A stretch of 64,000 nucleotides of DNA, taken from assembly GCF_008831285.2 (NCBI RefSeq), contig NC_045138.2, positions 15,533,934-15,597,933 on the forward strand. The letters are read 5' to 3'. Made by a program: the position numbers and the translations under genes. Positions 3,001 to 52,573 of this stretch are shown one piece after another. Every line of letters starts with the position of its first letter. Position 1 is the first letter of the stretch. This DNA comes from Nymphaea colorata (taxonomy: Eukaryota; Streptophyta; Magnoliopsida; Nymphaeales; Nymphaeaceae). The notes under the pieces are model-generated. The model was not told the DNA's origin. It saw nothing but the letters and a program-made list of their open reading frames with translations, and ran no database searches.

Positions 3001-4160
3001 AAGTAATCACAAGGCAACATCAGCAATCAGCAATTGAGCAACCGCAATTTTTTTCTATAAACAATAGCTGGTAATTAGATTTTGGCTTGAAGAAAGTCGA
3101 GAGTTCAAATATAGTTACAAATATATGTAAATCTTGAAATAAAACTGTCAAGAATTTTTATAAATAGCTGAACAGTTGGCAGTGTTGAATTGATTCAGGA
3201 GTCCAACTGTGTGTATATATATATATATAATTAAAGTCAGACGACTACCACTATGGCCGGATGGTCATTTTTTGTTTTGTGCCACTAAACCATTACAAAA
3301 AAATGTATCCTATCACTAAAAACCGGCAGTTGGGCATCAAAAAATACACCTTTTGTGACAGTTTTTAGCAACATAAAATAAATAAATAAATAAAAACTAT
3401 TCAAGCATACAGGTTGCCGGCTGATTTTTCGGATTTTTGAGACATCGGATGTTGCTGGACACTAAAGCACGGTTGCCAGTACATGAGCAATAGCAACAGT
3501 TTATTGTGCTTTAACCCCCGAGGAAAGTGAAAAGAGCTTTTGTCGATGCACAAGTTAATATTAAATTACTTATGTTTGACATTGTGTAAGTTTAATTAAA
3601 TGTAAAGGTAATTGATCAAAGCATGTTGGGTGCGCATTTAAAATGGAAAAGTGAGAATGAACGGCAGTGTTTAAAAAGATGACAATATCTAAAACTTTTA
3701 GGTTACTGCAGTTCTCATTAATATGATTTCATGCCTATCGTCTTAAAACATTTTGTTCCCATGCACTTTCCATGCCACACGCGAAATCATATAACTTTTT
3801 TCCCACATTCTGACAAAAGTAGATCCACATTCTTTTTTCCAAGCATTTTCAAATGCTCCATGTCGTGAACTTTTCGAAATGTGGTCAACATGAAACTCTA
3901 CTTTAATTTTTTTGTGACCAAAATTTTAAAGTTTTGTTTTAGAAAAGTGCTGAGTTTTGCTATGATCATGACAAAGAATGTACATACGCCATTGTCTTTG
4001 GCACTATGGCTACAGTTGAGAGAGACAGAATTCTCTATCGGCAAAAGCCTCCTATCTGTTTTCAGATCATGCATGATTCCCTTGTTTTGTCTGAATTCCA
4101 GTAAGAATTTACCTGACACCAGCTTCTAGTAAGAAAGAAGAAACAAGAACGCAGTGGCGT
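1..4160. other. Left-edge non-genic stretch
   Basis: I find no supportable gene. Frame 1 is open from base 1 to a TAG at 49-51, which could be the last few codons of a gene lying to the left, but 16 codons cannot be recognised. A CT-rich microsatellite lies at about 1045-1090. About 1985-2345 is low-complexity, with many degenerate words of the 'ggatt/catatt/cagatt' kind, resembling diverged non-autonomous hAT sequence. A short TA run lies at about 3211-3230. Around 3240-3530 there are words such as cactaaaaacc and gttgcc spread on both strands, which hints at a decayed CACTA-type element, but no termini can be defined. Confidence 0.4.
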
Positions 4161-4332
4161 CTAGTGGCGGAGCTACGGTGTTGTTGGTGTCCGCACCAGC
4201 CTATAAAATTTGCTTTATTTACATATATAAACTTCATTAATTTTTAGTTTTTTTTATATATGACTGCTCTTTCAAATTTGTAATTTAAACTTAAAGAGTG
4301 CCCTTAGCTACAAAGTTCAAGCTCTGCTATTG
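4161..4332. mobile_element. hAT-like MITE remnant (CAGTGGCGGAGCC family)
   Basis: The left end reads tagtggcggagct and the right end is its imperfect inverse (agctctgctattg). The 172-bp length matches the two better preserved copies at 40582-40755 and 47294-47476. The interior is AT-rich with no open frame. No convincing target duplication remains, so this is called a family member from its ends and size only. Confidence 0.45.
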
Positions 4333-4717
4333 GTGGATCTCATCATGGGCCGGAACTAAGCCGGAAAATGGTGTTGTCTCCACATTTCCCGTCGACGCCA
4401 TGCCGTTCACACTAGTCTGTAAGCCAAAGTCGGGTATACCACTTGAATAAGGATCAAGTCCTCTTCAGTTTGCATCTCATATGTCGCTTCATTACAAAAG
4501 TCTTTCATCTCAACGCATATGTGGTTCTGAATAAGTTACAGGGCGACACACAACTCCGGTATCGATTCGTTTATCTCTGCCGTAGAATATTGTCGGCTCT
4601 ATTTTCCTCGTCCACACCAGAAAGTTATACTTGCGTACAAGCCAATGCTATGTTAGAATACCTTGACAGCTATGCTATTGGGCTTGTGAGTGACGAATTT
4701 AGTTTCTCTCTCTTGCC

Positions 4718-4759
<42 letters not shown>

Positions 4760-9546: not shown

Positions 9547-12500
9547 CACCCGCGCCCGCCCCCCCACACACACTCCCTTGTCCTGTGAATAAAGAAGAAG
9601 ACGACGCAGAGAGAGAGAGAGACAGAGAGTGTGTGTGACAGAGCGAGGCTGTGAATTCTCTGAGCCTTCCAGGTCGAGTGGCGTCGGCAATTTAAAGGCG
9701 GCGAGATTTTACTGAAAGGCACTGTTGCGGGTCCATAATATCTTTAATGCCCTCCACCTGTCTTGTGATCTCTCTTCGACCGAATTGCCCTCCTCCATTC
9801 TGGAAACGACAACCGCTACTCCAGTGGGTCCGGACCCGGACGTGGGCTCAGCTCGGTCTCAAAATCCTAAACTCGATCAATAAAACAATATGATTTTTTG
9901 GCTTCAAGTACGATGAGATTCTTGAGTCAAATTTAATTTCAAAGGGATAAGCTTCCTTGGTAGTATTTTATTTGTTTTCTGGCTCCGGCTTTTTAGTTGA
10001 AGGAGGTCACGAGTTCGACTCTTGTGAACGCGTCTTTTTCATACAATCTACTGAGAATCTCTGCCCAAAACCCACTTGCTATATAAAAAAAAATTATACC
10101 AAGTCAAATGTATCAGAAAACACATGAATCATTGAACAAACGTCCACCACTCAGCCCCACCTGCCAGTGGCGTTAAAGAGAGGCGTATCTCAACTTAAAC
10201 GATAAGAATATCTTATTTTATCATTCAATAATGTGATGTTATTCAATGTGGAAGTAAGTTACTTTGGCCAACGCGTTCGAACCCAGACCGAGCCGGTCGG
10301 GGGGCATGAAAGTCCTTTCTTGGTTTGACCGAAGACCACCCAAGCCGTTGTGCATCATTGTCACGGAAGCTCCGAATGTCGCAAATACCCCTGCCGATAA
10401 AATAAAAAAGAGGGGCCTTGTGATGTCACGGAAAAGGTGCGATTCTGTTTCAGTAACGCATGGGCGTTGGCGTTGCAGTTCATGAGACGTTATGGTGGAG
10501 TTTGGATCATCTCCTGGATCCACTTTTTGGATCGCTTTTGAACCCTGGACCCTCCCAATCGGATCCAGGTAAGAGTCCGGGATCTGGTCTGTCTGGAAAC
10601 TGTGGACTCATGGTGGGGCTGGTAATCCACTCACGGCTTTGGGTATAATGAGGGAGATCTTTCTCTTTTGTCCAACTCATTGAGTTTGTTTTGAACGGGC
10701 ATACGAATCAGGTTTATGGCCAAACCAGATTCGGTTTGATTGGGACGTGAGTCCAGATTTGGATGAGGCAACGGATTGTGGACCATGTGGGTGCCCTCAC
10801 ATGCAAAGATACCGAGTCCCGTCTTGTTCTTGAACTACTTCAATGGCTCCCCTCATAAAATAATGGATTTTTTTTACAATTTTGAACAATTAAAAAAAAT
10901 GAGCAGTTGTTAGACCTTTGGGAGGCATCTCCTAATAGTAACACTTCTATGAATCCATCCTAAATATGAAAAAAAACAAAATTACAAAATTGATGTATTC
11001 TACTATCTAAAATTGGTCAATTAGTATGTAGCGGTTCTTGGTTCCGAACCGGTTGCATCTAGATCCATTATGAAATTCGGGTCAAATCGAAACTTATCTG
11101 GCCCAGTTACGACCAACACGAGCAAGGGAGTCCAAGCGGGTGAAAGGGTAGTTACGTCTTTCAGCGTCTTGCGGCAGATCGCCGCAGTGGCAAAATGGTC
11201 ATCCGGCCATCTTCTATCCCTCTCGGCGTGAGCGCCAGGTAGCTCGAACAAGTGGCAGGTGATGACGTGTCTCAATCGGAGGCGTGGCGTCGCCGGGGAT
11301 CTACACGTCGGATCGTACGGCAACCCCGGCGTGGCGCTGCTGACGGTGGCGGCGATTGACGGCGGGCTTAACGGCAGCCCCTCATTCCGTTACGGATTAC
11401 GAGGCGAGCGTTTCCAACCTTTTGTGAAGCGGGTAATTCCGTGAAAATGTTGAGGGGCTGAAGGAAAATTCTGCATCTTACGCCTGGAAACCAACTGGGA
11501 ATTTCGTATTTTCTGATTTTTTCCAAAATTCGCTATCAGGCGCCTAAATGTTTTGATATTTCCAAACGACCGCCTCGACCGGCTTGCAGTTTTCCGGTCA
11601 AAAGTGTGGGCCACGTGACCCAAGCTCGTAGCTTCCTGGAAGAGGGAGAGACTATGAATTACCAATTTAATCCAAATTTTCTTTGGGTGGGCGGAGAGGT
11701 GCTTGTTCTGATGCGAAAGGTAAGAGAATTTCTTTAAAACCACCTAATGACGAGAAATGAGTAGGACCATGTAAGCATTTTAATTAGTTTATTCGACTTA
11801 AATTACAGTTAGATAGCGGAGCCAATGGGCTTGTATGGGCAGTTGCCTACACTGACCTCCATAATTTATTTGTTTATATATTGGTTCCGCCACTTAATAT
11901 AGTTTGTTACTTATTGATGCCCTTCGCATCTGAGGTTTCTTTCTTTGTGTGAGTGTTTCTCCGCCACAAATTTTTAACTTTGGCTGCGAGCAGTGGGCGT
12001 TCTTGAGATCAGCTGGTTGGATGAAGTGGGTCCTTTCGTCTGCAACTTTTTTATGCAAATCACTATAGAGAAAGCGATCTATGAGGGAGACATATAGACA
12101 CACATGCAGATGCACAAAAATTGAGTGAGAGGAGGGAAAGGGGAGCCAATGCAATGCCGCGAAAGCTCTCAAAAACACAGAGAACACGACAGTCTTGCAA
12201 TCTTTTTGGTCTTCTTCAATTCTCTGTTGTTTTCATTTAAAAAAATGAAAGCGGATCACAAAATATGATCATGTAGCAATCAAAAATAGCGCGAATTTTG
12301 TGGAAATCGATAATAACAGGATGGCAAGTGTCAGCCTTAGGCTCTTATGGGCATCTCACTTAAAGCCCTCTAGTGTTTTTATTATACTATTAATACTTAG
12401 GCGCCTTCTTATAATCTTTTTTTTTTCATGTGATTGGAGAAGGGAGGTTAGAAGGCCAGCTAAGGGAAATGAGATTTAATACTCAAAGAGCGTATTTGAG

Positions 12501-36321: not shown

Positions 36322-36589
36322 TAGGGGTGGTTGATGCACATTGGAGGGACTAACTCACAGACTCAGAGAGGAACTCTTTCCCGGTTTGCTTTTACCTGCT
36401 TCCTTACTGTTGCCTTTTTCCTTTCCTTCATTAAATGAACGAGGACATCTTCCCCGCTTCTTCTTCACCAACCCCTTAAAAAACAAAATCATCACAAACA
36501 CACACATCACAAACAAAATCATCACAAACACATGTTCTTGGTGGTGGTGTTTAGCAACTGAGCATTCTCTCATCACCCAATTCATTAGT

Positions 36590-37430
36590 TCCAAATTTGA
36601 CATGTCTTCCCCTAGTGTTTGGAATAGTTCTATCTCACACACCTCCCCCTCTCACTTTTGGTGCGACATGCTTTTTGTCCTTCCTCTTTTCCTCCGCCTT
36701 GCTGACCTCTCATCGTCCGCGTCCCCATCCTGGCCTCTCTCACCTACCCGTGAGTTCACGTTTTCTTCCTGCTACCTGGCCTCCTTCGGTCCTTCTGTCG
36801 CGTCGCTCCCACCCCATTACCTTTGGTATCCTGGCCCCTCTCCTCGTGTCATTGCTTTTGTCTGGCTTCTTCTTACTGGTCATATCAATACTTTTGACCA
36901 CCTCCAGCGCCTTGGCATCAGTTTGACTAACCAGTGTCTTTTCTGTCTTGTCGAGTATCGGGTTTACATTTTTACTTTTTGTTCTTTCTTCTTTAGTGTT
37001 CTTGCTTCTACATGGTCTTCTCTTGTTAGTAGTCTTTCAAACTCACCTTCTATTCGTCTCTTTTTACTCTTTTGTCATTCCCCCCACCTGTCTGTTTCCT
37101 GGGGTCGTGTTTGGAGGTCATGGCTCATTTCAGCTTGGTGGTACATTTGAGAGGAGCGCAACAACAGGGTCTCCAGGAGCACCTTCTCTTCGCCAGATTT
37201 TGTCGCTCGTCTTGTGCAAGGGGATGTCCAATTTGCCATTCGGTTAAAGCGTCGCTGCCCATCTGCGGTTGGGTGACCTTCCTCTTTCACCCCGCCTCTC
37301 TTCTTTTTTCTGGGCACTGTATTTTATATTTTTCTTCTTGTTTCTGTTTTTGCGGTTTGTTTCGGTATCTAGAGGATCTCTTGTCCCCAAATTTTGTTAT
37401 ATATTTTCATTGTATCGGCTCTCTCTCTCT
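36590..37430 (+). pseudogene. Degenerate 3' end of an L1-type LINE (zf-RVT region)
   Basis: One frame contains SPTREFTFSSCY, then SPRVIAFVWLLLTGHINTFD and LGISLTNQCLFC, the zinc-binding region that ends the reverse transcriptase protein of plant LINEs. After frame breaks, a later frame (37151-37276) reads ERNNRV, then STFSSPDFVARLVQGDV and RLKRRC up to a TGA at 37274-37276, the usual tail of the same protein. A stop codon (37148-37150) stands where the family has Trp before ERNNR. The catalytic reverse transcriptase and the endonuclease are absent, so this is a 5'-truncated, frame-broken copy. A CT then TA tract at about 37418-37450 may mark its 3' end. Confidence 0.75.
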
Positions 37431-37450
37431 CTCTTTATATATATAATATA

Positions 37451-38161
<711 letters not shown>

Positions 38162-45130: not shown

Positions 45131-46962
45131 GATGGAATAATTTCTTAGACGCATTATTATGCCCCAAAGTATTATATAATTTGTATTGGGGCACTTCTTT
45201 AAAATTTGATCATATGCATCGACATTTTTAAGTTTTTGATCATCTAAAAGCGTGTTGATCACAAACGACGCACATGGAGACGGATCTTAGAATGAAATAA
45301 ATATCCGCAGTTCTTTCAAAATTCGAACTTTACCTGATAAACTTTTGATAAAGTGGGTTGTGAAAGGGTTTCCGCAACACATGCGTACTGACATTTAATT
45401 TTCAGAAACAAACAGATATGCTCGGCAATGGCCTTGGGAAGGGGAATAGTTTTTTGTTCTCGACGTAGAGAACAGCTGACGCCTCTATTAGGTCATTTCA
45501 TGTCTTTTCGAAAATTTATCATACCGTATAAACGAAAACCATTAAATTTTATTTTTAAAATATTATAAGAAAGTGGATCTAATTGTTCTAGGATCTCAAA
45601 AGAAGAGTTGGTACATATATATTGTGTTTTCGAAATTTTGAAGCAGTTCATCTGGATGCGCGAACAACATAAATCTGAAAAAAAAAAAAAAATCCCACGC
45701 ATCCCAATGAACCGGTAAAAAAAAAAATAGTTCCATTGGTTTTATACTATCGGATCGCGTACGGTTAAAAATTTGAAAAAAGAAAGGCACTTGAGATGAA
45801 GATGAATTTTAAAATGAAATGCATCCAATTAATTAGTTAGATGAAAGGTCGCCATTTAAATGGGACCAGACTTGCATGGAGTGAGATGCAATTCCGAGTT
45901 CAACTTTAATTGTAATCCATTTTATTATTGACTTGGAACAGTGAACAGTAATAATGTACATAAGAAGTTTAAGATATATATTATACATGTGTAAGCCACA
46001 TAAATAAGTCTTTATATGCATCATTGTCATCTCCAAGATAAGGATTGAGATGCCACCCAAATATCATATTGATTTTTATTTCTTGTCGGTGCGGTTTGTG
46101 GAATATATATATATATATTTTTAAATAAAAAATTATGCCAAAACAACTATTAGTTATATGGACCACAAACTATGCAGGAATACGTGGATCATTATCAAGT
46201 AAATCAAGCCCATGTATTTGACTTCATTTAATTCTTAAGATATTTTTCGATGTATTTTACAGTCTCATGTATCAAACCATATATTTTTATATATGTTAAT
46301 AAACTTTTTCAATAAGGTGCTAGATTTAAACATTCAATTCAGATATTTATCATGTTTCTATTTACACAAGATTTAATTTGGATTTGGATATCTGATGAAT
46401 TTGGTATGAAATATCCTATTTCAACATGGGTGTGTGGTCCATGAGGCGTCCGCCTTATTGGCTGGTCAAAGCCATTGTTGGCAAACTGACCAAGTCAACG
46501 CGCATTCATTGGCTCAGATTGCGCACACTTCCCGAACTTATATAAACAAGTAGTCCAGTAAGTTGCACGGAACCAAACCCAGCCGAGTCAACGGTTTTCA
46601 CTCTGAAGAAGTCAGCCCACTAGCTCAAGTCGCTGTTGTTTTTTCATTGGCACGATCTGGGTTAAGCTAATTGCCTATCAGTTGCATGGTCAGCTTTAAT
46701 TTCTTCTTACACTTTCTATATATAATATGTTCATAGTGCAGAGAACACTAATTCCGATGCTGCATAACTAGATCCAGATTCGGGTTGGGGATCTAAAAAC
46801 TGTATCCGGCCCATCGAATAAGTCATCCGAACCATTGTCATTCAAATTCCATCAAAAATTTAATCAGCTTTTTATTTACTAATTACTCTTATTGCTTCCA
46901 TTTTTCCTTCTAGTGAATCAAATTAATGTCATTGGTGCTTTTAGCAATAGTTTTCATAAACC

Positions 46963-47001
<39 letters not shown>

Positions 47002-47293
47002 ACAATATATCCAAAACCGAAAGTTTTGTACCTGATCTTCAAGGCCTATACCTGTCGAGATTGGCACCTACAGGAATCAAACTGACAACTGACTAATTAC
47101 CGGTTGGTTTGACTGACAGTCTAAAACCCTAAAGCTAGTACCTTCGCCGGCACAACCTACACTTGCTTTGACATACGAGAGGTTGATGTGCCAACAGAAA
47201 TCAAACCAGCAGCTGACCTCTTACCAGCCACTGACTCAGACCAATTATGGTTAAACATTTTAGAGTAAACTTTAATATTTACAACGTTATGAC
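45130..47293. other. Spacer with an orphan promoter-like patch
   Basis: No gene is supported. At about 46430-46560 there is a cluster of promoter-like words: ggtcaaag and aagtcaac (W-box type), attggc (CCAAT-like, twice) and ttatataaac at 46538-46547. No coding exon follows that I can recognise. A TA microsatellite lies at 46966-46998. Confidence 0.3.
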
Positions 47294-47476
47294 CAGTGGC
47301 TGAGCCACATATAAGCTGGTCTGGGCAGTTGCCCACACCAGCTTCTCAAAATTTTTTTTTTCAGTTTTACATCAAGATTGTTTAATATTTAATTTGCTAT
47401 ACATATAAATACTCCTTTTAAGTATAAAAACCTCTGAATCAGTGCCCTTTTAAAAAAAAAAACTGGCTTCGCGCTG
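47294..47476. mobile_element. hAT-like MITE with perfect 8-bp target duplication
   Basis: A 183-bp element starting CAGTGGCTGAGCCAC and ending CTGGCTTCGCGCTG, so the ends are imperfect inverted repeats in the CAGTGGCGGAGCC class. Directly outside, gttatgac occurs on both sides (47286-47293 and 47477-47484), an exact 8-bp target-site duplication as made by hAT transposases. The interior is AT-rich and has no open frame. It needs a transposase from elsewhere; none is in this window. Confidence 0.8.
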
Positions 47477-47818
47477 GTTATGACATGCTTAGCAAAAGCT
47501 GTGGTCTTAAGCAGAAAAGAAAAAAACATGCTGGTAGTATTGAGCTAAATTCATGGAGCCATGCTGTTCTCGAGAGCGCGTAGTTCTCGGAGGCAACCTT
47601 GAGACTGTTCTACAAACACGGCATATGAATGGGCCTGGAATTGAAGCAAACTCTTTGTGGGGTCTTCTTTTTCTGGACATATGATAGAAACCATTATTAT
47701 CAAAAATTAAACTCTTACATTTATGATATGGTCCTATAAACTTACTTTTTTTCCTTTTTCTTCCTTTTCAATTAAGAAAATTTGCAATTAAGGACATGTT
47801 TTTTTAGTATAATTTTGA

Positions 47819-48231
47819 AATGGTGTAACTTTTTTGTGGCAAGACACACTTCTTTTGTTCTTTGATCTTAACAGCAGAACTTTAAATCACAAAAAGTATC
47901 TCTTTTCTAACACGTTATCGTGTCCTTTCGATACAAAATGATTTGTTTTCGTTGGGAATCATGCGTCCCCAGAATCATGCAAAAATTGTATACAGTTCTT
48001 CAGGAGCTCTTTGCGTCGGCTTAACAAACAGAACTTTGAATCATAAAGAGTGTATCTTCTCTAGCCGTTTTCATGTCTTTTCCATATGGAAAATGTTTTT
48101 ATTTTTCTTACAAAATATACCTTTCTAGAATTGTAAAACTGTATACAGTTCGTCAAATAACTTGAAAAACCAACCTGGCAATTTCGTGAATGGGCTTGGT
48201 TGAGGAGGGATTAGGTGCTGACAGGAAGGCA
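47819..48231 (+). repeat. Segment P, copy A (inverted duplicate of RRM-gene intron 1)
   Basis: About 98-99% identical to the reverse complement of 51115-51540, which lies in intron 1 of the RRM gene. Differences noted are about five substitutions, a 2-bp indel and a roughly 10-bp indel near the right end. Segment P is itself two diverged tandem units: cagaacttt recurs at 47875 and 48029, and gtatacagttc at 47988 and 48141, a period of 153-154 bp. Confidence 0.9.
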
Positions 48232-48280
48232 AAAACCAATATCGCAGGTACATCAGTGAGAGCGCCCTTCCTCATCCAGT

Positions 48281-48535
48281 CAATACCAACGACGCTGTCC
48301 AATCGAAGCACACGCCAATGGCGGCGGTACTGCGAACAGTCGGACGTCTCCTTCGAAACCCATCTCCGTTTAATGCTGCCCATCGTCGCCAACTGCCTCT
48401 GCGGCTCAGTTTCGACAGAGGGGTTGCCTCCAAGGTATTCGTTGGAGGTATTCCATTCTCCTGTTCGTTATTTTTCATTTGCTTTACAGGCACGCTGTGG
48501 TCGATCTGCTTTCGTTTACATGGAATATGCTGTTT
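48281..48535 (+). pseudogene. Segment E, copy A: duplicated exon 1 of the RRM gene
   Basis: A 255-bp near-copy (6 differences, all transitions) of the reverse complement of 51894-52148. It carries 37 bp of leader, the start codon at 48318, all of exon 1 (48318-48447) with its GT donor, and the beginning of intron 1. The encoded leader keeps the Arg-rich targeting character but has Ala7 to Thr and Gln to Arg changes. Exons 2-4 are missing. Splicing to the acceptor at 48551-48552 would put a stop after two codons, so no RRM protein can result. Only 37 bp of upstream sequence was copied, so it probably lacks the parental promoter. Confidence 0.85.
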
Positions 48536-48552
48536 TTCCCTTCTTGCTGCAG

Positions 48553-48676
48553 CTTGGTAACGAAAGCTCAAAGCTATGGCAAGAAAATTCTGATGCTAAT
48601 TAACGATGAGGAGTGGAGGCATGAGATGGAGGAGTTCTTTTTCATCAAACTTCGCACCAATGCTGATCATCACGAG
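48553..48676 (+). pseudogene. Exon-like fragment of an unrecognised gene
   Basis: A 124-bp stretch bounded by a good acceptor (ttcttgctgcag) and a GT donor after GAG (gtcagg), open in one frame for 41 codons, including YGKKILMLINDEEWRHEMEE followed by a phenylalanine-rich FFFIKLR. The composition looks coding, but I do not recognise the family. It needs two bases from a preceding exon, whereas the duplicated RRM exon supplies one, so it is out of phase with its neighbour. It could be a captured exon or chance. Confidence 0.35.
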
Positions 48677-48995
48677 GTCAGGATACGAGCTTATAATTTC
48701 CAGATATCAAAAAGGTGGCCTGTGGCTGAGGCTGTCCATCTTTTTGTATAGATTATCCGAGAAATCGTTCTGTAAATTTTGGGACATCCCGGAAGGCGAT
48801 TGGGACCCTTTCAATGAACCAGTGGGGATGGATTAGGGACCTTTCGGGTCCCAATTTTTGTCTGTGTATCCTTTGTCCCCGTCTCATGTCTTGTGAAACA
48901 CGAGGTGCAGATGGCAAAGGATAGGTAACTTCTCTGCCACCTATTAACAACTGAAGGTCCACGCGATTATCTATGGCCAACTTCAGAGCATGTGC

Positions 48996-49017
48996 AGAGA
49001 GAGAGAGAGAGAGAGAC
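48996..49017. repeat. GA microsatellite
   Basis: A short GA run in the 3' flank of the RRM gene. Confidence 0.85.
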
Positions 49018-49204
49018 ATATCCAAAGCCCTATAATTCCTGCTACATATGAAAGACGAGCTTTGCTCAAAGCTCTTTTTCCCGGTAACAAGGAGAACCTC
49101 TAAGAACTGCGCCCAAATTATGAAACAATTCTAGTGGTAACAAAATCTAAGTTTTACAGTGCTATGAAAGGTTAACATCATTATGTCTCGATCTGAGGCC
49201 CACA

Positions 49205-52111
49205 TCAGTTGTTCCTCGTAGGTGGTCCTCGAGCTCTTGGCACAGAATCCTGAAACTGTGTCCTGGGTTTTGCATTATCTACAAATATCACTCTACCGTT
49301 CAAGATCTGTAAACAGAAAGACATCCAATCAGGTCCGTTTAATATCAGTAAGAATATATAATGAAGACTGAATTAGTCCTGCCTGGGTATTTTTATTCAA
49401 TGACAATGAAGCCTACTGAATTTTTTAAATTAGTAGAATTGGTGGCCCGGAAGGTATCATACTAGTTGTTTTGTGGTTGTCCCCTCATGTAAACCCACAA
49501 GGTATCCCTCATCCACCACTAAAAGGGTTTTCCTACTGTTCAGCATTAAGGCAAAGCACATGCGCAGGTATTGGGTCGCAGACCTCTTGAGGCCATGCAA
49601 TTAACAGTTGAGTCTTCCTCTTGAGCACGCAAAGCAAGCTCATTAATAGGCAGGCCACAAAATAACACCTTCTAAAGATCTTTTCAAAGACCGAACTGCT
49701 TAATCTGCAGATAAACCCCAGGTAAGCCGCCACTTTATGAGGGCAACACCATGAGAAAGCTCATAATGTAGAGTGGCAGTTAGACCTGGACAACCGCTCT
49801 ATCTCCAGCACAATGTCACAATCTGTCAAGCTTAGGCCTATGTTTGGGTGGGCTGGGCCAAGAGCAGCTGCAGGCAAGGGAGAAAGGTGCTAGAGCAGGC
49901 ATTTACCTTGCCATTCATTTCTTTTATGGCCTTTTCGGCTTCCTCTTCTGATGCAAATGTCACGAACCCGAAGCCTTTAGATCTTTCAGACACCTTGTCC
50001 ATAATTATAGAGGCTGCAATCAAACATGTTAGCTATGTAAAATCTGATAGTTTCAGAAGAACTTAATGAAGACAAGCACGACCTATGGGATATGAAAGTT
50101 CAGAGTTCCAATTGGGAAAAATTGATGAAAGCAAGCACCTTCTATAACCTGACCAAACGGTGCAAAAGCTCCAGCTAACAATTCCTCTGTTGTGTAAAAA
50201 GATAGTCCTGCAAAATATTCCAAGGGAGAAGACTAGAAACTGTAATGGCTTCTTAACTTCACTTAATTGAAGGGCGAAAAAACAGAAAAGCCTTGATTGC
50301 TGGCTTTCAACTGAAAACTCAAAGAAAAGTATCCCTAAACCATGACTGTCTTTGTGTTAATTCAAGAAGTCGGATGAACTTCGACAATGCTCGAACAGAG
50401 TAAGTCTTTTTAGTTGACATCACAAAGGCCTCATTGCAGTATTTTCAGGATAACTCATCCAAATGCAACGGTTTTTCAGGCAAACATGTGAATGGAAAAT
50501 ACACAACTTAAAAGAATCGGGATGGACTAAGTTACTAACTATCACAAAATGAGTAAAAAAAGTTGATTATCTTCGTCTCAACATTTTTGCATCCAGAAAA
50601 ACTTCATCTTCACCCTTATCTGCTCAATGTAACCACCTCTCCAGGAGAACCAACAGATTCCATCATACGCCCTATCAATGACCTGTCCTATCCCTCCAGT
50701 GTTGCGCTGCTCTAGAATTCACAATGCCTTCACAATGTCATTCAGAATCTATATGACACCTGCCTAGGCAAAATTGGGACATTAAGCTACTTTACTGTCT
50801 AGCATGCCAGGCCCCGTTTCTACTCATTTATGCACCGTTGCTAACAGTCGCTCAGGCCTCTATGAAGTCTCATCTTTAACGCCCTAGACTTCCTTAGAAA
50901 GCCCTGTAGCAGCATTAACATGTCCATTCACCTAAAGGAAGGAAACCCATAGAAGACCAGATAACCCGTGGCTTCATCAATTCCCTGTAGTAAAAGCACT
51001 AATTATATGTAAAAGGCCCCATACACGGGATGACTTAATCTCCACACAAACCACCAACATGCTAATACAATGCATCTTAACTGTTAGCTGGCCTAAGTAG
51101 TTGAACCAAGGCAGTGCCTTCCTGACAAGATCTTTCAGCACCTAATCCCTCCTCAACCAAGCCCATTCACGAAATTGCCAGGTTGGTTTTTCAAGTCATT
51201 TGACGAACTGTATACAGTTTTACAATTCTAGAAAGGTATATTTTGTAAGAAAAATAAAAACATTTTCCATATGGAAAAGACATGAAAACGGCTAGAGAAG
51301 ATACACTCTTTATGATTCAAAGTTCTGTTTGTTAAGCTGACGCAAAGAGCTCCTGAAGAACTGTATACAATTTTTGCATAATTCTGGGGACGTATGATTC
51401 CCAACGAAAACAAATCATTTTGTATCGAAAGGACACGATAACGTGTTAGAAAAGAGATACTTTTTGTTATTTAAAGTTCTGCTGTTAAGATCAAAGAACA
51501 AAAGAAGTGTGTCTTGCCACACAAAAAAAGTTACACCATTAACGGCCGGAATAAAGCTACAATCTTCACGCATTCTACATCAACCAACAAGAGCAACGTT
51601 GCCAAGATTGGAGACTTTAACTAAAGAAAGTACCAAGAACTAAAAGTGCCAAGAACTAACACTAGAAGTTCTGAAATTAACCATGTAGAAGACTTTTAAG
51701 AGATGACCACCTAAGAATTTCGAGAAAAAACACTCGTATTACTGGCTACGGACCGGAAAGAGAAGATGCTAGTGTGGATCAGGTAACTATCATTCTGTCG
51801 TGGAGAACCGATATCCTTCACCTTTTTAATCACCTCAACGGCTCAACCAGAAACCGAAGCTCATCGTTGGCACACTTAAAAATTCAAGTTAACAAACAGC
51901 ATACTCCATGTAAACGAAAGCAGATCGGCCACAGCGTGCCTGTAAAGCAAATGAAAAATAACGAACAGGAGAACGGAATACCTCCAACGAATACCTTGGA
52001 GGCAACCCCTCTGTCGAAACTGAGCTGCAGAGGCAGTTGGCGACGATGGGCAGCATTAAACGGAGATGGGTTTCGAAGGAGACGCCCGACTGCTCGCAGT
52101 ACCGCCGCCAT
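49205..52111 (-). CDS. Small organellar RRM RNA-binding protein, 4 exons
   Basis: Binds RNA through one RNA recognition motif; related plant proteins act in mitochondria or plastids in transcript editing or stability. Exons on the minus strand are 52111-51982, 50207-50139, 50013-49907 and 49306-49205, all GT-AG and in phase, giving 135 aa. Residues 1-38 are Arg-rich and nearly free of acid, like an organellar targeting leader (MAAVLRAVGRLLRNPSPF...). RNP2 is VFVGGL at about 40-45 and is split by intron 1. RNP1 is KGFGFVTF in exon 3. The RRM closes with LNGRVIFVDNAKPR in exon 4, and only about 17 residues follow, so there is no glycine-rich tail. It resembles the S-RBP11 group (At5g06210) from memory. 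Intron 1 contains segment P, and exon 1 is duplicated at 48281-48535. Confidence 0.9.
51115..51540 (-). repeat. Segment P, copy B (in intron 1 of the RRM gene)
   Basis: The partner of 47819-48231 in reverse orientation, with the same two-unit (about 154 bp) internal structure. It lies between exon 1 and exon 2, about 440 bp downstream of exon 1 in the direction of transcription. Confidence 0.9.
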
Positions 52112-52148
52112 TGGCGTGTGCTTCGATTGGACAGCGTCGTTGGTATTG
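51894..52148 (-). repeat. Segment E, copy B (leader, exon 1 and donor of the RRM gene)
   Basis: The partner of 48281-48535. It spans 37 bp upstream of the start codon, exon 1 and the first 88 bp of intron 1 of the intact gene. Homology stops abruptly at both ends. Confidence 0.9.
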
Positions 52149-52573
52149 CTCGGCCGAGTAGGGGAAGAGGAGGGTCGAGGTCCCGAGGGGCTTCAAAATT
52201 GGGATCGATTGAAGTTGAACTTCATCCGGACCAAGTGTAGCGGTAGCCTGATCAAACGTAGTCAATGTCACCAGGGTACGCCATTTTTGGCCTCGCACCC
52301 GCGTCGACCGATGCGGGTGCAAGTGACACCCAAACCAGTCGAAGAAGAATCGGGTGCGGTCAGCAGCACCCGATTAAAATCCTCTTTACTCGCAGCGGTC
52401 AAATGAGAGTGAGTCTAATATGGTCTAATTTTTAGGGTTTATTTTATTTTATTTTTTTACTGTTTCTCTCCTCTCGCCTGCGATCTTTCTCTTCCACCGG
52501 CAGGCGGCACCTTCCTCTCCAATCTCCACCGGCAGGCGGCATCATCTCCGTCCGGCTCCGGCGGCATCAGGTT

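Follow-up and report, generated by a model that had tools for sequence, protein, structure and literature searches.

Filler DNA at plant chromosome breaks has been described in several systems. Sequence close to the break is a frequent source of plant fillers, which can be mosaics; those quoted for maize are 1–131 bp long (PMC2686159). In rice, foreign segments often fill the breaks left by excision, with synthesis-dependent strand annealing (SDSA) as one pathway, and the fillers measure 1–123 bp (PMC4423477). Repair by polymerase theta in Arabidopsis involves iterative rounds of priming, which include unrelated donor molecules (PMC10923293). This paper examines a 717-bp segment, here called copy A, that lies beside a gene for a protein with an RRM domain in a 64,000-nucleotide stretch of the Nymphaea colorata genome (the window; contig NC_045138.2, positions 15,533,934 to 15,597,933). 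Copy A contains two pieces of this RRM gene, both inverted and in swapped order, around a fragment of an exon similar to NARROW LEAF 1 (NAL1). It is best understood as a probable repair patch for which several templates were used in turn. Coordinates are those of the window, unless a contig is named.

Anatomy of copy A and its donor gene

Copy A occupies 47819–48535 on the plus strand, some 0.7 kb beyond the RRM stop codon. A self-BLAST of the window is the basis of the coordinates and identities given for its two larger parts. The first, P', at 47819–48231 (plus strand, gene-sense), corresponds to segment P within intron 1 of the gene (51115–51540, minus strand). The other, E', at 48281–48535 (plus strand), corresponds to segment E (51894–52148, minus strand), which is exon 1 with its flanks. 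According to a preliminary description of this DNA, P and E are each present twice, in opposite orientations and at about 98% identity, and the alignments agree with this: P' at 47819–48224 matches 51540–51132, inverted, at 97.8% (400 of 409 columns, with one 3-bp gap), and E' matches 52148–51894, inverted, at 97.6% (249/255). The bit scores are 696 for P and 434 for E; against 200 shuffles of 51001–52200, made in two-base blocks, this query scored 31 at best. The paired arms are separated by 2907 nt (P) and 3358 nt (E). The match of P' continues after a skip of 10 bp in the donor (51125–51134), with 48222–48231 exactly equal to 51124–51115 (10 bp), which reproduces the outer limits originally drawn for P.

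The self-alignment, which had been proposed as a check, displays a permuted inverted pair, just as claimed; P is followed by E on the plus strand at both places. The spacing is likewise as claimed, at 49 bp in copy A (48232–48280) versus 353 bp in the gene (51541–51893). Copy A has four junctions, namely left flank/P, P/NAL1, NAL1/E and E/right flank.

By its anatomy, with an apparently intact coding sequence and splice sites, the RRM gene is the donor. Its coding sequence (52111–49205, minus strand) has four predicted exons, at 52111–51982, 50207–50139, 50013–49907 and 49306–49205; this model is based on the reading frame, with in-frame joins, and on GT/AG sites, not on transcripts. The product of 135 amino acids has a single RRM domain (Pfam RRM_1, E-value 8e-24), and its basic N-terminal extension looks like an organelle-targeting peptide. 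E' comprises 37 bp before the ATG, which is all that was copied 5' of the start codon, followed by exon 1 (ATG at 48318), the 5' splice site (GT at 48448) and the start of intron 1. The exon-1 frame of E' remains open, with two amino-acid differences from the donor, and the GT donor site is kept. P contains an internal tandem duplication, about 73% identical at an offset of about 153 bp (47867–48002 versus 48020–48155; in the donor, 51489–51354 versus 51336–51201). Its presence in both copies makes it older than the patch.

The spacer between P' and E' adds a third template segment: 46 of its 49 bases belong to a fragment of a NAL1-like N-terminal exon in antisense orientation, and the best match is on another contig (C2). 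As first reported, the match extended over 48224–48277 against C2:3542556–3542609 (49/54, opposite strand). The first 8 of these 54 bases are exact to the P donor and match C2 at 5 of 8 positions, so P' reaches 48231; the NAL1 piece is then 48232–48277 (coding sense on the minus strand), which matches the C2 locus at 3.54 Mb at 44 of 46 positions. The NAL1 match stops at 48277 and that of E begins at 48281, leaving three bases, AGT (48278–48280), that are matched to neither template. A further match, between 48232–48276 and C1:17741826–17741870 (41/45, opposite strand), is on the contig of the window (C1). With 48222–48283 alone as query and E-values up to 10 allowed, the same two places were found besides the query itself, and a protein search led to further, weaker DNA matches, the best of them 47/53 at C1:16.14 Mb. 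The C2 locus has a 185-amino-acid open stretch that matches Pfam NAL1_N (2.8e-31), with a 59-amino-acid core that matches NARROW LEAF 1 structures in the PDB (2.9e-21); the minus-strand open reading frame at the spacer in the window scores 0.023 against NAL1_N, under the cut-off.

NAL1-like exon fragments are also present at seven places between 15.80 and 18.43 Mb on C1, the nearest about 0.2 Mb beyond the window. Four of the seven have internal stop codons and two more are only partial; for six of the seven, wider flanks were covered as well. In all of them the fragment meets a common non-NAL1 sequence at roughly one position; the places have about 1.5–2.3 kb in common at 82–89% identity within 3.1-kb stretches, and one pair reaches 96%. 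Their arrangement looks like that of a repeat family into which a NAL1 exon was taken up before the family spread along one contig.

The whole-genome search covered 408 Mb in 783 contigs; very common words were skipped and the best candidates alone were scored, so its counts are lower bounds. Copy A was found at five places: itself, donor P, donor E, and two that match the spacer region alone. P and E were each found at two places; the adjacent gene is thus the sole donor seen, and P is not seen as a dispersed element. For the two pieces this two-place result is strong but not absolute. The insert as a whole draws on at least two genomic templates that are still in place, the nearby RRM gene for P and E and, as the best-matching candidate for the 46 bp, the NAL1-like exon on another contig.

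Against their donors, P' and E' together show 12 differences in 661 aligned sites (about 1.8%), with 6/406 in P and 6/255 in E (Fisher p 0.55). The P difference at 48222 is probably an alignment-end artefact beside the 10-bp skip, in which case P has five. At the P/E rate, the 46-bp NAL1 piece would carry at least two differences with a probability of 0.20, and the divergences of P, E and NAL1 are compatible with one event. The idea that P is a transposable element, inserted twice independently, was rejected, given its two genome places and the similar divergence of P and E. If substitutions are assumed to accumulate at 7e-9 to 1.5e-9 per site per year, copy A is 1.3–6.1 million years old by point estimate, or 0.7–10.7 million years with 95% limits on the count. 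The event is most likely recent, as had been suspected from the high identity.

Template switching and competing explanations

We favour, with good confidence, the explanation that copy A is a multi-template repair patch (complex filler DNA) from one template-switching break repair. A double-strand break or collapsed fork would have occurred about 0.7 kb past the RRM stop codon. Repair synthesis would have proceeded in turn on the intron-1 segment P, on 46 bp of a NAL1-like exon and on the exon-1 segment E, and the new end would finally have been joined to the old flanking DNA. The break, the pathway, the order of copying and the single arrival of all three pieces are what we infer; the pathway may be template switching of the SDSA or polymerase-theta type. 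Gap patching by SDSA that moves gene fragments has reportedly been described by Wicker et al. in 2010. Each template would be entered independently, and the pieces of the neighbouring gene can therefore be inverted and in swapped order; a spacer from a third locus is what iterated template use predicts. The preliminary description had offered two template switches or circularisation. Template switching holds, but a count of two is too low for three template segments joined at four junctions, and circularisation is disfavoured.

Several points weigh against this explanation. The NAL1/E junction holds three bases from neither template, and microhomology at the junctions is weak; the alignment of CTGT(T/A)TTT at the E/right flank junction is weakly supported, since 36 of 1000 shuffles were as good. 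Homology of the 35 bases adjoining E with a relative of the right flank on another contig (C6) is weak by the same figure and was not relied on. Over the 54 bp first reported, the NAL1 match taken by itself diverges by 9%, which seemed more than a single event would allow (p 0.003); the reading of the NAL1 piece as much older DNA was dropped once 8 of the 54 bases were reassigned to P, the remaining 46 differing at two sites. The larger pieces, P' at about 410 bp and E' at 255 bp, exceed the cited fillers, which favours longer, SDSA-type synthesis, and the joint arrival of the three pieces is itself a deduction. Template switching during replication and break repair are not separable from this sequence alone.

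The main competing explanation for the swapped order is a circle of 51115–52148, in which the 3' side of P is joined to the 5' side of E; opened between E and P, it would have been inserted in inverted orientation, with the NAL1 bases as filler at the circle joint. One such joint yields the order P then E, the orientation of insertion is free, and no more junctions are needed than for template switching. However, opening the circle between E and P should leave the gene's spacer on the outside, where no part of its 353 bp was detected, and trimming is then required; in the donor, the outer ends of copy A are separated by those 353 bp, whereas an opened circle demands that they be continuous. 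As the filler at the joint has to be derived from NAL1, template switching is needed anyway, and we regard the circle as unlikely. Pack-MULEs and Helitrons also capture gene fragments, and elements of these kinds carry gene-fragment mosaics. Insertion beside the donor gene of such an element, either Pack-type with terminal inverted repeats (TIRs) or a Helitron, could draw further support from the repeat family with a related NAL1 exon, which is found on the contig of the window, starting about 0.2 Mb from it. Copy A, however, matched none of that family's other sequence. In a scan of 46200–47840 against 48520–50600 for exact target-site duplications (TSDs) of 5–11 bp with 14-base ends, no TIR/TSD pair had fewer than 4 mismatches in these ends; the scan was run without a shuffled control, and TSDs below 5 bp, or ends that are short and degenerate, could escape it. 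Among exact 12-mers repeated across both flanks, inverted repeats included, there was only a CT microsatellite. Helitron-type 3' ends (CTRRT plus a hairpin with a stem of at least 7) were found at 0 sites in 48501–50500 (plus strand) and 45501–47850 (minus strand), although weaker hairpins could escape. The flanks are not repeated at high identity either: 47560–47830 on the left matches nothing else in the genome, and 48530–49140 on the right has one other match, at 72% (191/264; C6:24152727–24152987). Taken together, capture by a transposable element is very unlikely.

A stepwise origin is also conceivable, by tandem or inverted duplication of the 5' part of the gene, followed by deletions after which P and then E remained; the NAL1 fragment would be a separate arrival. 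A tandem E-P-E-P arrangement trimmed at both ends does give P-E, but this route costs more events, and between P and E there is no detectable upstream promoter, spacer, or sequence from beyond the downstream side of P. Its probability is correspondingly very low. To an assembly artefact, such as a chimeric contig or misplaced haplotig, we give next to no credence; it would be unlikely to yield two short permuted inverted pieces at about 2% divergence together with a 46-bp fragment of a third locus, and the contig that carries the locus is 44 Mb long.

Flanking DNA and other features of the window

The part of the right flank that has a relative elsewhere (48564–48825, plus strand) begins 29 bp to the right of E' and is old low-copy sequence. 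Its divergence from the C6 relative is far older than the patch, and it is therefore taken as resident DNA outside it. A coding-like stretch, NDEEWRHEM, is conserved between 48564–48865 and the relative at C6:24.15 Mb, as read by eye in both, and the relative seems (also judged by eye) to lie beside retrotransposon-like sequence. The 41-amino-acid open stretch in the right flank has no Pfam match, and its match to Urm1, at an E-value of 0.7, is taken as chance. To the left of copy A, 47280–47573 is a diverged repeat remnant; it shares with 4148–4412 and 11814–11875, likewise diverged and partly matching, a motif followed by T-rich sequence, and all three are possibly old transposon ends. Elsewhere in the window, an open stretch at 36335–37150 (plus strand) has a zf-RVT domain (Pfam PF13966, 1.1e-07) and is probably the trace of a non-LTR (non-long-terminal-repeat) retrotransposon. 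Simple repeats at 38049–38133 and 4705–4758, of AT type by translation, show self-matches and mutual matches on both strands. Rfam, at gathering scores, gave 0 matches in the window.

Likely effect and comparison with known systems

Copy A is probably a non-functional, inert gene fragment. A chimeric gene, spliced from the E' donor at 48448 to an acceptor-like AG at 48551–48552, was rejected; the join is out of frame with the 41-amino-acid open stretch and meets a stop within three codons (as read from the sequence alone). There is a very slim chance that the permuted inverted repeat is functional, in that read-through RNA from the gene could form a duplex of 255 bp between E and E' or one of about 410 bp between P and P'. 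As a result of the swapped order, the two helices would cross and could not both nest in one RNA. If this were true, spliced and unspliced transcripts would form different double-stranded RNAs, leading to self-directed small RNAs whose source is set by splicing.

The event clearly exemplifies a type already known, and knowledge of the mechanism is unchanged by it. What makes it unusually readable is that the genome still contains a candidate donor for each of the three pieces; the lengths copied, their direction and the order in which the templates were used can be read from copy A. It also illustrates that a start codon, an exon and a splice donor can land beside new DNA without a visible transposon.

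Among the systems to which copy A can be compared, inverted copy-number variants formed by fork stalling and template switching or microhomology-mediated break-induced replication (FoSTeS/MMBIR; PMC10766186) similarly consist of inverted, non-collinear copies of one locus, whereas the scale of copy A is below 1 kb. Ds elements that capture gene fragments (PMC3260210) likewise hold genomic fragments including introns; in contrast, element ends were not found around copy A. In SDSA gap patching (PMC4423477), foreign segments are copied into a break, as in copy A, where they are gene fragments in an intergenic position; the difference is that the donor of copy A is the adjacent gene, two segments of which are reordered around a fragment of a third gene. 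Complex filler DNA at plant breaks, as described for maize p2/p1 (PMC2686159) and for polymerase-theta repair (PMC10923293), resembles copy A in the use of several templates, often nearby and in either orientation. Compared with those fillers, the pieces of copy A are much longer (about 410 and 255 bp) and include a whole exon with its start codon and splice donor.

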